A stretch of DNA of 10,342 nt from Anaerolineae bacterium (lineage in GTDB: Bacteria > Chloroflexota > Anaerolineae > JAFGEY01), in the NCBI GenBank assembly GCA_016931365.1, contig JAFGEY010000545.1:1-10342 (forward strand), given 5' to 3'. Shown one piece after another: positions 1-4,467 of the stretch; within the stretch, counting starts at the first letter, position 1, and each line of letters opens with the position of its first letter. The notes under the pieces were generated by a model. It was not told the origin of the DNA and made no database searches. It was given only the letters and a program-made list of their open reading frames with translations. The position numbers were made by a program, and so were the translations under genes.

Positions 1-848
1 AACGCCACTCCCTGCCCGGTTAGCAAACTGACGACTTCACTCACTATCGGAACTGCGCGGCCATTCTTCCCGTGGATGGTCACTTGGGTTCCCCGAACCT
101 CAAGCCGGCCCACTCCCGTCAGGGCCTTTTCCAGCGCCGGGGACAGCCCCCCGTCCAGGATAAAGATCACCCGTTCCTCTGCTTCCAGGCCGTGAATCAG
201 CGCCGCCGGGGTATCCAGCGCCACGATCCGCCCGTGATCGAGGACGGCGACCCGGTCGCACAGACGCTCGGCTTCTTCCATAAAGTGGGTGGTCAGGAAG
301 ACCGTCTTGCCCCTGGCGCGTACATCGCGTACCAGGTCCCAGATGGCGTGACGGGCTTGCGGATCGAGGCCGGTGGTCAGCTCGTCCAGGAAGACGAGTT
401 GTGGATCGGGCAAAAGCGCCAGGGCGATGAACAGACGCTGTTTTTGCCCGCCTGATAGTTTCGCGAAGGGGGCGTTGCGCTTCTCCTCCAGCCCCAACTG
501 CGCTAACAGTTCCTTCCAGTCGGCCACTTTGGGGTAGAACGAGGCGTACAGGTCGAGCGCTTCCCAGACCTTCATCCGATCCGGCAGGTTGGACTGCTGC
601 AACTGTATCCCGGTGCGTTCCCGCAGAATGTGGCTCTCACGCTGCGGGTCCACGCCGAGGACGCGAATCGTGCCCTGATCCGGTCTGCGCAGACCCTCAA
701 GACATTCGATGGTGGTGGTCTTGCCGGCCCCGTTCGGGCCGACCATACCAAAGATTTCGCCCGCGCGAACCTCGAACGAGACGTCTTTTGCAGCGACCGT
801 CGTGCCGTATGTCTTTCTCAACCCTTTAACTTGCACGATGTTGTCCAT
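1..848 (-). CDS. ABC-2-type exporter ATP-binding subunit (partial, runs off the left edge)
   Basis: This is the ATPase subunit of an ABC exporter of the DrrA/CcmA-like class. It powers a separate membrane permease that would be expected next on the minus strand, outside the window. The start is ATG at 848, preceded by TGAGGA, and the frame stays open for 282 codons to the edge, so the C-terminus is missing. Visible motifs are Walker A GPNGAGKT (residues 37-44), a Gln-rich Q-loop near 82-85, the signature LSGGQ (131-135), Walker B LVFLDE (151-156), the D-loop TTGLDP and the H-loop His188. After Walker B the usual DEP reads DEL, a variant I believe also occurs in this exporter class. The region after about residue 222 is the C-terminal extension typical of drug-export ATPases. 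It starts 39 bp after the phosphotransferase gene with no visible terminator, so the two are probably co-transcribed. The substrate cannot be read from the sequence. Confidence 0.95.
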   Translation of the reverse strand, partial: MDNIVQVKGLRKTYGTTVAAKDVSFEVRAGEIFGMVGPNGAGKTTTIECLEGLRRPDQGTIRVLGVDPQRESHILRERTGIQLQQSNLPDRMKVWEALDLYASFYPKVADWKELLAQLGLEEKRNAPFAKLSGGQKQRLFIALALLPDPQLVFLDELTTGLDPQARHAIWDLVRDVRARGKTVFLTTHFMEEAERLCDRVAVLDHGRIVALDTPAALIHGLEAEERVIFILDGGLSPALEKALTGVGRLEVRGTQVTIHGKNGRAVPIVSEVVSLLTGQGVA

Positions 849-887
849 ATTTTCCTCACTTACTTTATCAAGATTGAATCCAAATAG

Positions 888-3272
888 TTATACGGACTCC
901 AAAATCTCCACAAGCCCCTGGCCGCCATTGACGCGAACCCGATCGCCGGTCTTCAGACGCATCGTAGCATCACCGCAGCCAACGACGGCCGGGATTCCCA
1001 ACTCGCGCGCGACGATGGCGGCGTGGCTCAGCGGGGCTCCCAGATCGGTGACGATGGCCGCCAGCCGAGGGAAGAGCGGCGTCCATCCGATGTTGGTCAG
1101 CGTGGTGACCAGGATTTCACCCAACAGCAGTTGCTCGCTGTCTTCCAGGCGATCCAGACGCCGCACGGTTCCCTCGACGATGCCCAGCGCTCCAGCAAAC
1201 CCCTTGATGATATTGGCGGTATCCGGGCTATGCGGCGCCGTTGGCGCATTCGCATTGTAAATGTCGCTGCGCCGGTTCGGGTCCGCCGCCCACTTGAAGG
1301 GGTCAAAGCGGCCGATGATGATTGTCGGGTATGGCGGCAGGGCGCGGTAGCGTTCGTATGTTTCCTTCCGCGCGGGGAGGAACCTGCAGGCGGAGTCGTC
1401 ACCCGCGAGGAGCGCGAGGACTTCATCCATAGTTAGGAAGAAGACATCTTCGCCTACGCCGGTCAACTCGCCGGCGCGCAAGGCAAAAGCGCGGATCACA
1501 ATCGAAGTCCGCGTCGCTTCCGAGCGTACCGCTTCACGCTGACTTGCAGCCTGCGCCGCTTTTTCCAAACGTAGCCGCATTGACTTGGCTTTGCGCGGAT
1601 ACCGTTCACAGAAACGCTCCCATGCGGCCGAGTATGCAGCCTGTTGCCTGGCCAAAAGCGCTGCGATGTCCACCGGCGCTTTGGCGAACTCGACGAGTTG
1701 CCGGTCGAGCCAGGTGGAATCTTCCAGCGGGCGCTGCCAGGCATATTCGTTTTCGTCCACACCCCGATGACCGTAGGCTTCCATGTATGCCTCGCGGCTC
1801 ATTTCGCCGCGCCCCACTTTGCCAAGACCGGTCAGTGGGCCGAGGCTTTCCAACGGGGATGACAGGCCGCTTAGATTGGAGAGCAGGGCATTGGCATCCT
1901 CCGTTCCGACCAATCTGCGCAGTTCGACCTCCAGATGATTGGGAAGATCGGTCGCGCCGGCGTTGGTAATCCAAAAAGCGTACAGGGAATACGGTACGAT
2001 TTCGTCTCTCAACAGGGCCGTCAATTCTGCCCGGTTTTCAGTCTGACGGATACGCTGACACATCGTGGCGCACCAGCGCGGGTTCTCTGCTATGAATTGA
2101 GGGATCTTTTTGCGAAGGCGCGCCAGCTTTGTCCCGAACCGGGTCAAGCTCGGAAGTACTTTGAACCACCACGTCCAGGATGAGATAGGAACGAGCGGAA
2201 TGTCCACACCCTCTGGAATGCCTCCCCAAAAGGCAATGGCTTGTTGTGCTGCCTTTGGCGTGTTGCCGCCGAAGAATGGGCGGCTGACGGAAATCTGGAT
2301 GCTCAGATTGATATACCCACGACCGCCGATGATGCCGGCCATTGGATAACCGTCCACTCCTATGGCAGAACTGTCACAAAAATCCACCCCTTCATAGACG
2401 AGATCCTTCCGCAGGGAGCATGAAAAAGGAGTAAGCACATGCGGCGCGTTTTCGCCCAAGTTGGCGCCGGACCATATAAAGTTGCCCCTGAGACTGTCGT
2501 TCCATTCGGCGGTTTCTGCTTTGTAGCCGCCCAGGGTGGTGATGGGGCGCGATTGGAGGATGTACAGCCGTCCACCCGCTATCGCCCATTCGATGTCTTG
2601 TTGCCCCCCCAGGTCTTTTTCCAACCCGCAGGCGTTGCGATAAAGCGCGCGTGTGAGGCGGTTGAGTTCCGCCGGCCCGCTGTACGTGCCCTTCGGACGA
2701 GCCAGGGTAAAGGTTTGCGGATTGGCCTGTCCGGAGACCAGGGCTTCACCCAACCCTTGCACGAAATTGCCCGTCATCCGCATCAGGTCGCCCGTCACCG
2801 GGTCGGCGGTGAACAGCACGCCGGAGAGCTCTGCTTGGATAAGGCGCTGGACGACGACGGCGATTTCGTGTTCCGTCTCCTCCAGCCCCTGGGCTTGGCT
2901 GTAGGCTTGCACCCTGGCGTTGTGCCGCGAGCGGCGCACAGTGTGGATGGCTTGCCGGATCTCCTCGTCCGTCCACACATCCAGGACCGTCTCGAATTCA
3001 CCGGCGAACGATGCCAGAGCGGAGTCTTCGTGCAATGCGGAAGAGCGCACGGCGAAGGAACCATTCTTATTATCTTTCCGCAGACGGGCGAGATATGTCT
3101 GCACCAGTGACCACGCTTCGGCCGTCAGCTCGTCACTAACGAAGGCCGTCGGCAGGATGATGAATCCATCAGGCACCCGGTAGCCGGCTTGATAAAGCCT
3201 GGCCAATGTTCTGCCTTTACCGCCCGCAAGCTGCTCTTGTTTCTTCGTCAATTCCTTGAATGAACTAATCAT
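888..3272 (-). CDS. Rifampin phosphotransferase-like / PEP synthase-superfamily dikinase
   Basis: This 794-residue protein has the three-part layout of rifampin phosphotransferases and PEP synthases: an ATP-binding domain, a middle acceptor domain and a swivelling phosphohistidine domain. The ATP-grasp part (about 1-305) shows GGKG (17-20), AVRSSA (74-79), SGVLFTADPVTGD (150-162), GLGEALVSG (173-181), DIEW (226-229) and QSRPITT (240-246). The middle part contains YGHRGVDENE, which resembles the conserved GHRG segment of Rph-like proteins. The C-terminal part carries SHAAIVARELGIP, whose His750 (codon at 1023-1025) is the expected phosphate carrier. In known relatives ATP phosphorylates this His, which passes phosphate to rifamycin (Rph) or pyruvate (PEP synthase). 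Length is close to Rph (about 870). The pairing with an exporter and a repressor favours a small-molecule target over central metabolism, but the acceptor is unproven. The start at 3272 was chosen because AGGAG lies 9 nt upstream; an in-frame ATG at 3296 has no good ribosome-binding site. Confidence 0.88.
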   Translation of the reverse strand: MISSFKELTKKQEQLAGGKGRTLARLYQAGYRVPDGFIILPTAFVSDELTAEAWSLVQTYLARLRKDNKNGSFAVRSSALHEDSALASFAGEFETVLDVWTDEEIRQAIHTVRRSRHNARVQAYSQAQGLEETEHEIAVVVQRLIQAELSGVLFTADPVTGDLMRMTGNFVQGLGEALVSGQANPQTFTLARPKGTYSGPAELNRLTRALYRNACGLEKDLGGQQDIEWAIAGGRLYILQSRPITTLGGYKAETAEWNDSLRGNFIWSGANLGENAPHVLTPFSCSLRKDLVYEGVDFCDSSAIGVDGYPMAGIIGGRGYINLSIQISVSRPFFGGNTPKAAQQAIAFWGGIPEGVDIPLVPISSWTWWFKVLPSLTRFGTKLARLRKKIPQFIAENPRWCATMCQRIRQTENRAELTALLRDEIVPYSLYAFWITNAGATDLPNHLEVELRRLVGTEDANALLSNLSGLSSPLESLGPLTGLGKVGRGEMSREAYMEAYGHRGVDENEYAWQRPLEDSTWLDRQLVEFAKAPVDIAALLARQQAAYSAAWERFCERYPRKAKSMRLRLEKAAQAASQREAVRSEATRTSIVIRAFALRAGELTGVGEDVFFLTMDEVLALLAGDDSACRFLPARKETYERYRALPPYPTIIIGRFDPFKWAADPNRRSDIYNANAPTAPHSPDTANIIKGFAGALGIVEGTVRRLDRLEDSEQLLLGEILVTTLTNIGWTPLFPRLAAIVTDLGAPLSHAAIVARELGIPAVVGCGDATMRLKTGDRVRVNGGQGLVEILESV

Positions 3273-3281
3273 GGTAACATA

Positions 3282-3286
3282 CTCCT
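3282..3286 (-). promoter_or_regulatory. Ribosome-binding site that sets the phosphotransferase start
   Basis: AGGAG on the minus strand lies 9 nt before the ATG at 3272. It sits inside the extra eight codons that the upstream ATG at 3296 would add. That favours 3272 as the start. Confidence 0.7.
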
Positions 3287-3324
3287 GGCCGCACATCTTG
3301 TAATGGGCCGAACGCTATTTTCCC

Positions 3325-3618
3325 TCACTTGCTCTTCAAAATCGCTTCTAGGGCCGCCACGTGTTCCTGAAAGACCTGGCGTCCTTCTGAGGTGGCGGTG
3401 ACGTAGGTGCGCGGTTTGCGCTCCACAAAAACCTTGTTGACTGCAATGTAGCCGGCTTCTTCCAGCTTGCGCAGGTGGGCGCCCAGGTTGCCGTCGGTCA
3501 CATCCAGCAGGTCGCGCAGGTAGGTAAAGTCCACCTCGTCGCCTGCTTCCAGGGTGACCAGGGCAGCCATGATGCGCAGGCGCACCGGCTGGTGGATGGT
3601 TTCATTCAGATTGGTCAT
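3325..3618 (-). CDS. Winged-helix transcriptional regulator, HTH_34 type
   Basis: This 97-residue protein is almost entirely one winged-helix DNA-binding domain of the HTH_34 / ArsR-like class. It opens with HQPVRLRIMAAL (residues 9-20), then a helix containing VDFTYLRDLLDV. The recognition helix is TDGNLGAHLRKLEEAGY (41-57), and a basic wing follows, VFVERKPRTYV (63-73). The C-terminal helix (80-95) probably makes the dimer. It has no ligand-binding domain and no cysteine cluster for metal sensing. Its ATG lies 3 bp after the stop of the membrane-protein gene, and its ribosome-binding site (AGGTGG) overlaps the end of that gene, so translation is probably coupled. The perfect inverted repeat at 4222-4240, over the start site of this operon, is the natural candidate operator. 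I infer a dimeric autorepressor. Which signal releases it is not visible; the membrane protein is one possible partner. Confidence 0.92.
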   Translation of the reverse strand: MTNLNETIHQPVRLRIMAALVTLEAGDEVDFTYLRDLLDVTDGNLGAHLRKLEEAGYIAVNKVFVERKPRTYVTATSEGRQVFQEHVAALEAILKSK

Positions 3619-3621
3619 GGC

Positions 3622-4188
3622 TTACCACCTGGAACGGATGTACAGGCCCAGGGCGATCATCCCGCCGCCGCCCAAAACTCCCATCCACAAGTAGAAGAGA
3701 TCGGGCAGTAAAAAGTAGCTGATCAACACCAGGGCGGTGATCGGCAGCGGCCACCAGACGGAGGCAAAGGAGAGCAGCAGGCCCATAGACAACTGGCCGA
3801 TCATGATGAACAGGACAATGACCATGGACGTTTGTTTCCCATCCAGCGGCCAAGTGACCGCGATCGTGGCCATGCAGTAAAAGACCAGGAGCAGCCAGAA
3901 GAGGCCGGCGCGCTTTGCCGTCGGGAGTGCCGTCGCACTGCGGACGCGCTTCCCCGCCCGGAAGCCCCAGAGGGTGCCCAGGATGCTGCCGGCAATGCTT
4001 AATCCGATCCAGACATAACCACTGATTTCCGGCAAGAATTGGGTGCATATAAATCCAATCAGCCAGACGACACCGGTAACGATCAGGGTGATGGTGGTGC
4101 CGCTGCTGGCAATCGCGTGGCGGGCTTTCTGCTCCATCTTTTGGATGGCCGCCAGTGCTTCTTGGGCTTCAGAAGGAGAGATTTCCAT
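3622..4188 (-). CDS. Small polytopic membrane protein paired with the HTH_34 regulator
   Basis: I do not recognise a named function. The 188-residue protein begins with a cytosolic amphipathic helix (about 6-28, SEAQEALAAIQKMEQKARHA) followed by five or six hydrophobic segments near residues 31-51, 57-76, 96-113, 120-141, 146-161 and 165-184. A basic loop (GKRVRSA, near 79-85) separates the second and third segments, and the protein ends in RSRW. There is no signal peptide cleavage site and no obvious catalytic motif. It is the first gene of the leftward operon and ends 3 bp before the regulator start, so the two are made together. The start at 4188 has AAAGGAGT just upstream. Co-translation with a one-domain repressor that lacks its own sensor suggests that this protein could sense membrane stress or tether the repressor. 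That role is inference. Confidence 0.85.
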   Translation of the reverse strand: MEISPSEAQEALAAIQKMEQKARHAIASSGTTITLIVTGVVWLIGFICTQFLPEISGYVWIGLSIAGSILGTLWGFRAGKRVRSATALPTAKRAGLFWLLLVFYCMATIAVTWPLDGKQTSMVIVLFIMIGQLSMGLLLSFASVWWPLPITALVLISYFLLPDLFYLWMGVLGGGGMIALGLYIRSRW

Positions 4189-4221
4189 GATTACTCCTTT
4201 AGAGTTGTGTGAATTTCAGAG

Positions 4222-4240
4222 TACTCTGTACTACAGAGTA
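4222..4240. promoter_or_regulatory. Perfect inverted repeat over the leftward start site (probable operator)
   Basis: TACTCTGTA, one C, then TACAGAGTA make a perfect 9-1-9 inverted repeat. It starts at the last base of the leftward -10 box and covers the predicted +1. A dimer bound here would block initiation of the membrane protein / regulator / phosphotransferase / ABC operon. The HTH_34 regulator in the same operon is the obvious candidate ligand. Confidence 0.75.
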
Positions 4241-4268
4241 GTATACAACAAATAACTGAAAAAGTCAA
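4240..4268 (-). promoter_or_regulatory. Sigma-70-type promoter of the leftward operon
   Basis: On the minus strand, -35 TTGACT (4268-4263) and -10 TATACT (4245-4240) are separated by exactly 17 bp. Each hexamer matches the consensus at five of six bases. The predicted start is near 4233, giving a leader of about 45 nt before the ATG at 4188. Confidence 0.8.
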
Positions 4269-4283
4269 GCCCCCAAAATGATT

Positions 4284-4325
4284 GACTCGAACCTGGCTCT
4301 ACAAACGCCGGGCGTTCGACGAGTC
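4284..4325. repeat. Nested inverted repeats between the two divergent promoters
   Basis: An inner palindrome AACGCC-G-GGCGTT (4304-4316) lies inside an outer pair, GACTCG (4284-4289) and CGAGTC (4320-4325). It sits between the leftward -35 box (4263-4268) and the rightward -35 box (4375-4380). It is therefore not in either predicted transcript and could be a second protein-binding site. No coding sequence is supported in the rest of the 4246-4374 interval. Confidence 0.4.
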
Positions 4326-4374
4326 TGTACGATTTCGCGCTTGGGCAGGCTGACCAAACATCGCACACGACTGC

Positions 4375-4402
4375 TTGACACCCGCCTTGTTTGGGGTACA
4401 AT
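4375..4402 (+). promoter_or_regulatory. Sigma-70-type promoter of the rightward operon
   Basis: A perfect -35 TTGACA (4375-4380) and -10 TACAAT (4397-4402) are 16 bp apart. The predicted start is near 4409, giving a leader of about 70 nt before the phosphofructokinase ATG at 4481. Confidence 0.75.
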
Positions 4403-4467
4403 TGACCCGTCCACACCCCATCACGCGGAGACCGGCTGTCCGCCAGGCGGCGGGTATCCAACAAAAT

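Follow-up and report, generated by a model that had tools for sequence, protein, structure and literature searches.

The window, by which we mean the whole stretch of DNA analysed, is a contig of 10,342 bases whose left end lies inside an ABC ATPase gene. Four consecutive open reading frames on its minus strand encode a membrane protein (MP), an HTH_34 winged-helix protein, a three-domain dikinase and the ABC ATPase, and they are preceded by a predicted promoter and operator. The genes, the sites and the codons of the catalytic residues discussed below are as follows.

3622..4188, minus strand: membrane protein MP, 188 aa, first gene of the operon
3325..3618, minus strand: HTH_34 winged-helix protein, 97 aa (PF13601, 96 bits against a cut-off of 27)
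888..3296, minus strand: three-domain dikinase, 802 aa (PPDK_N 161 bits, PEP-utilizers 82 bits)
3..848, minus strand: ABC-2 type exporter ATPase (ABC_tran 107 bits), C-terminus cut by the window end
4263..4268, minus strand: predicted -35 hexamer TTGACT; a TTGACA-like box lies at the same place before the operator in relatives
4240..4245, minus strand: predicted -10 hexamer TATACT, at a 17-base spacer, giving a sigma-70-type promoter at 4268-4240
4217..4240, minus strand: predicted operator palindrome, core TACTCTGTA..ACAGAGTA, overlapping the end of the -10 box
1533..1538, minus strand: codons of dikinase Arg587-Glu588, corresponding to Arg666-Glu667 of rifampin phosphotransferase (Rph); in a 30-row alignment the Glu is invariant and the Arg at least 90% conserved
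1023..1025, minus strand: codon of dikinase His758 (numbered from the ATG at 3296), corresponding to Rph His825 and invariant in the 30-row alignment

Only 3 bases separate MP from HTH_34, 28 separate HTH_34 from the dikinase and 39 the dikinase from the ATPase. The dikinase probably starts at 3272 rather than 3296, because its database copy (P0001) has 794 aa, and the second gap would then be 52 bases. Five terminator-like sites were found in the window, none of them inside the intergenic gaps of the operon. The four reading frames, the promoter and the operator are all in place, as the original prediction of four close same-strand genes behind one promoter and one operator had it. The divergent genes on the plus strand look ordinary (a PPi-type phosphofructokinase, a glycosyltransferase 4, PhzF, MFS and RpiB), and a strong promoter-like site (11/12) lies at 4375-4402 on that strand, 5′ of the phosphofructokinase gene. 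The named nearest relatives of the dikinase come from Thermoflexales and other Anaerolineae. A recent mobile origin of the operon was considered and rejected: bases 1-4465 had no plasmid match in a search in 'near' mode, and the GC3 of the dikinase (0.69), the lowest among the ten genes of the window, is yet near that of the others (0.71-0.81). A single protein match of 41% identity (E 1e-50) lies in an 11.85-Mb record filed under plasmids.

Profile searches of the 396 genomes in the class of G001 detected MP in 29 genomes (30 matches, E 1e-10). We mapped 21 modules, namely 20 of these 30 matches and the window; the ten other matches are truncated, sit on short contigs or were retrieved as short loci only. 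MP and HTH_34 adjoin on one strand in all 21 modules, with exactly 3 nt between them in 16. In 17 of the 21 an ABC ATPase is encoded on that strand no more than 3 kb away, downstream of HTH_34 in 12 modules and upstream of MP in 5. Permease candidates were scanned in 13 relatives, 12 of them usable (the L165 reading frame is on the other strand and uninformative), and an ABC-2 permease stands beside the ATPase in 11 of these 12. The ABC2_membrane gene follows the ATPase in ten (L137, L138, L140, L142, L143, L153, L157, L158, L159 and L166) and precedes it in L155, while the reading frame scanned in L145 overlaps the ATPase and gave no match. On these counts of adjacency, ATPase and permease we take the conserved unit to be MP, HTH_34, ATPase and permease, which supports the ABC-2 exporter proposed in the original prediction. 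In the window itself the ATPase is of the kind that an ABC-2 exporter requires, and the permease position falls beyond the left end. This ATPase scores 427-528 bits against the ATPases of the six closest modules and 230 bits against DrrA, below the cut-off of 312. Two of the modules show repeated genes: the end of another MP lies just before MP in L138, where two consecutive ABC-2 permease genes are also present, and L142 carries a partial MP with an operator ahead.

The two constant partners differ in how readily they can be placed. HTH_34 is a winged helix only, of 97 aa and without a ligand domain; it was aligned with 20 relatives, and its nearest solved relative is PH1061 (1ub9). MP gave no Pfam or NCBIfam match at E 0.001 and belongs to no recognisable sensor family. 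It probably has six transmembrane helices and contains a conserved N-terminal stretch, and its structure model is of low confidence (pLDDT 64.7). The pairing of a winged-helix-only protein with MP agrees with the sensorless repressor and multi-helix membrane protein originally proposed, and MP may be regarded as a putative sensor or partner of the repressor.

The promoter count alone is uninformative, with two promoter-like sites in the window against a shuffle mean of 1.7, and support for the promoter therefore comes from the same arrangement before the operator in relatives. There, reading of the MP upstream regions showed a good -10 box with, at its end, a palindrome of the form TACTCTGTAnnACAGAGTACTCT. 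We scored a matrix of 13 sites leave-one-out against 600 mononucleotide shuffles, whose maximum was 10.5 bits; the window operator scores 31.2 bits. Twenty of the 30 MP upstream regions carry an operator of 14-32 bits, each above every shuffle. Six further loci, whose positions were read by eye, have it at or close to the beginning of the run of genes, bringing the count to 26 of 30. In L133 it immediately precedes MP (the script was anchored on another reading frame), and in L142 it precedes a first, partial copy of MP. The ATPase has it upstream in L154 and L161 and close to the start of its reading frame in L163; in L155, where a permease opens the run, the site lies before that gene. No match was found in the remaining four (L113, L125, L138 and L156), with only 63 bases scanned for L138. 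Among 17 held-out loci, which did not contribute to the matrix, the operator is present in 13.

The sequence of HTH_34 varies among these relatives and the operator core is kept, with TCT/AGA replaced by TTT/AAA in some. A regulator that changes while its operator core stays is the usual mark of autoregulation, and comparison of the predicted sites thus gives good support to an operon autoregulated by HTH_34 through a conserved operator, as first proposed. The dikinase itself does not appear to belong to the regulon of this repressor elsewhere, an idea that was rejected because no comparable operator occurs in the sequence retrieved for 11 Anaerolineae dikinase loci that lie outside the module (L141, L144, L146-L152, L167 and L168); the sole match of the operator scan among them is one unrelated site of 13.5 bits in L151.

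The dikinase consists of an ATP-grasp domain, a substrate-binding domain and a C-terminal phosphohistidine swivel with the catalytic histidine, the broad architecture of Rph-like dikinases and the one originally assigned to it. Profile comparison with Rph gave a probability of 100% over 725 columns, and the six best Foldseek matches are Rph structures (top E 2.9e-30). The domain order is that of Rph (PDB 5fbs, 5hv1), and the catalytic residues correspond: Lys27, Arg84, Thr103 and Glu236 align with Rph Lys22, Arg117, Thr136 and Glu297, the Thr103 position being Thr or Ser in orthologs. Together with the Arg-Glu pair, which in Rph is described as having a role in the second phosphotransfer (PMC4844700), and the histidine, the dikinase retains a counterpart of each of the catalytic residues Lys22, Arg117, Thr136, Arg666, Glu667 and His825.

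With fold and catalytic residues shared in this way, the protein could be a true rifamycin phosphotransferase under a new regulator. Two aligned positions add something to this reading, in that Rph Val368 aligns to the hydrophobic Ile329 and Lys670 to Arg591. Against it, the dikinase scores 239.6 bits with the Rph equivalog model NF041857, whose cut-off is 999, and stands apart from Rph in the tree (SH-aLRT 99, by a quick method without bootstrap and with two Rph rows). Rph Gln336/Gln337 are replaced by Gly281/Glu282, and the Tyr351-Met359 stretch has no residue-by-residue alignment to the dikinase; these contacts are the part that could be mapped, in a domain where the alignment is weak. The ATP-grasp domain is also about 37 residues shorter than that of Rph before the VRSS motif. 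A protein on a separate branch, mostly lacking the rifamycin contacts and set in an exporter operon, is very improbably a rifamycin kinase, and we rejected rifamycin as the substrate on the equivalog score, the tree and the contact residues. Aligning the middle domain with Rph at the rifamycin contacts was a check named in the original prediction, and its outcome speaks against rifamycins as the target. Each part of the operon is of a known kind, and the dikinase resembles Rph but is not Rph.

The dikinase is also the inconstant member of the operon. Among the 396 genomes it was found in 16 (18 matches, E 1e-100), and it occurs in 2 of the 21 mapped modules, of which one is the window, itself chosen for having a dikinase, and the other that of G200 (L137). 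The two enzymes come from different subclades and occupy different places: the window gene lies between those of HTH_34 and the ATPase, and in G200 the dikinase stands downstream of the permease and is itself followed by an acetyltransferase and a second ABC-2 pair. Four genomes (G181, G200, G337 and G396) have both dikinase and MP, against 1.2 expected (P 0.02, kinship ignored). The two genes adjoin in one of these four, for which a slot model with 8 slots and ~4000 genes gives a chance of ~0.008; in G181, G337 and G396 they lie on different contigs, and the dikinase matches of G181 and G396 are of the short form. MP was not detected in G001, whose dikinase scored highest among the genomes searched, nor in a set of 8 genomes searched for it. 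Further searches for linked cases, in the 10 genomes that make up both the family and the order of G200 and in the orders of G337 (48) and G001 (5), yielded one new short-form dikinase only (G410, L169). Among the 119 + 119 listed clusters of dikinase and MP homologs no shared contig was established; two pairs with equal lengths of the longest contig were taken as chance, because a length of 2824 is too short for both genes and the pair at 3296 comes from different sources. The four families were expected to be neighbours in related genomes, and this holds for MP, HTH_34 and the ABC gene but largely not for the dikinase; conservation of the four-part layout is not supported. The dikinase is an optional member that has entered such modules independently two or more times, and all four genes together form a rare combination that arose more than once.

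To place the dikinase family in context, neighbours were taken for 45 loci, comprising L001-L033 of 80 loci and 12 Anaerolineae loci; the weaker L034-L080 and the Anaerolineae matches in G004, G005, G258, G396, G399 and G410 were left out. A TetR gene is the same-strand upstream neighbour of the dikinase in 15 of 34 loci and the downstream one in 3 of 29. Any ABC ATPase lies within 5.5 kb in 12 of the 45, on the same strand in 7. Permease confirmation covered four of these seven, and exporter ATPase and permease were confirmed in the gene run of the dikinase in 4 of the 45 loci besides the window: L137, L146 (G001), which has two ABC-2 permeases and an ATPase, and L006 and L030, both with TetR-ABC-FtsX. 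Modest as the numbers are, these neighbourhoods favour a functional tie between dikinases of this kind and small-molecule-responsive repressors and exporters. Other features of the family are more scattered. An N-terminal extension of ~79-92 aa occurs in 29 of the 111 listed homologs (e.g. P0092, P0101 and P0102), with two hydrophobic TM-like segments in 20 and one in 8, and the extended proteins are possibly membrane-anchored dikinases. The Anaerolineae dikinase genes of L148-L151 lie beside FkbM-type methyltransferases, and those of L148-L150 also beside genes from a cluster that contains an ICMT/PEMT-type membrane methyltransferase.

We consider that the operon comes from a Chloroflexota-type bacterium (Anaerolineae/Thermoflexales-like, judged by the nearest names), that it encodes an ABC-2 exporter under its own repressor and that it has recruited a small-molecule dikinase, a reading about which our confidence is evenly balanced. 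Basal transcription would supply MP and HTH_34, and an HTH_34 dimer on the operator would block the promoter. As HTH_34 has no ligand domain, the signal probably arrives via another protein, and MP is its constant partner. We infer that sensing is the task of MP rather than of HTH_34, and that MP responds to a lipophilic compound or to the state of the envelope and relieves repression, perhaps by holding HTH_34 at the membrane as SdpI does SdpR. The exporter would then expel the compound. Judged by its residues, the dikinase would phosphorylate its histidine from ATP, releasing AMP and Pi, and could transfer that phosphate to a hydroxyl group, either on the exported compound or on a small molecule that occurs with it, thereby inactivating or tagging the acceptor. 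Comparison of sequences supports the predicted operator, the operon as a unit, the exporter and, through its residues, the dikinase chemistry; the sensing, the sequestration, the substrate and its inactivation are proposals. Self-protection or detoxification is a possible role.

Two described systems resemble the regulatory half of this proposal. SdpR, of the ArsR type, is small and lacks a ligand domain. In Bacillus subtilis this autorepressor is encoded with SdpI, a polytopic membrane protein reported to take it to the membrane (PMC1626106). A repressor gene paired with that of a polytopic membrane protein is common to both, and sequestration in our operon is a proposal; MP has no Pfam match to SdpI and cannot be assigned to that family, comes first in the operon and is followed by an ABC exporter, unlike the arrangement of SdpRI. 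The ytrGABCDEF operon of B. subtilis likewise unites a membrane protein, a repressor and an ABC transporter (PMC12772383), but with a GntR-type repressor, the small protein YtrG and no dikinase. Among the open-licence papers listed in our literature searches, none describes, by title and abstract, an MP-HTH_34-ABC-2 module with its operator. A bolder version, tentative and rather doubtful as a whole, is that MP and HTH_34 form an undescribed membrane-to-repressor pair controlling Chloroflexota ABC-2 exporters through the conserved operator, and that here the pair drives modification and export, by a new dikinase subfamily, of a membrane-active or lipidic compound that MP senses.

The dikinase could instead be a metabolic or scavenging enzyme like the two-component dikinases HpeHI, CreHI and PpsAB, phosphorylating a phenol or another small molecule to trap or activate it, with the exporter context incidental or due to one shared inducer. 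Phenol catabolism by such systems uses the three-part chemistry predicted for the dikinase, with a like set of domains and with small molecules as substrates (PMC12167813); HpeI is among the structural matches of the dikinase, and the dikinase is mostly unlinked to the module. We nevertheless judge this unlikely: TetR lies upstream in the 15 of 34 loci noted above and exporter genes share the run in 4 of 45, and no aromatic-catabolism family is prominent among the neighbour families listed (25/40 and 25/31). The window enzyme differs from those systems in being one polypeptide, and the window holds no phenol-catabolism operon. Another possibility is that the enzyme phosphorylates a membrane lipid or polyprenol and that the operon is an envelope-homeostasis unit rather than a drug-resistance one. 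No lipid-kinase relative is known to us, which counts against this. The ytr operon offers a precedent, its small membrane protein, repressor and ABC transporter answering lipid II cycle inhibitors (PMC12772383), and both the N-terminal extension with its paired TM-like segments (20 of the 29 extended homologs) and the membrane and FkbM methyltransferases beside several Anaerolineae relatives point the same way. The window dikinase lacks such an extension, and the neighbours vary among its relatives, making a lipid or polyprenol substrate quite unlikely. Anti-phage defence, which the original label of a defence operon might imply, was rejected, since no specific PADLOC model matched: 13 models match the ABC ATPase (best mad3, 105 bits), two Csa3 winged-helix models match, and none matches MP or the dikinase.

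For the exporter operon with a recruited dikinase, the predicted operator, the regulator without a sensor domain and the membrane partner are all directly testable. Finding Rph-like dikinases of an orphan branch next to regulators and exporters suggests that the use of dikinases to inactivate small molecules extends more widely than rifamycins. Should MP prove to be the sensor, the SdpI-SdpR principle would have a further example, in another family of proteins.

Several relatives of the dikinase depart from its three-domain form. In ~1350-aa proteins (P0027, P0028 and P0061) one ATP-grasp domain is followed by two units of substrate domain plus swivel, a layout read from P0027 and P0028 and assigned to P0061 solely from its length and its Pfam list. 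In these proteins a single ATP site could supply two phosphohistidine arms. A two-gene version, at L167:3610-7851 and L144:173-4269, has a ~860-aa three-domain protein directly followed by a 490-550-aa protein of substrate domain and swivel without ATP-grasp. The split is similar to that of HpeHI, but with an extra unit, and the ~860-aa protein of L167, which has three domains by Pfam, falls outside the family of the window dikinase in the tree. Rph itself is found near some members of the family: in Clostridium sp. CX1 (L001, G008) the dikinase is preceded, at 4-13 kb, by two Rph pieces, with a full Rph elsewhere in the genome, and in Desulfosporosinus (L007) an Rph-like reading frame ~1.8 kb before the dikinase is 65% identical to that full Rph.
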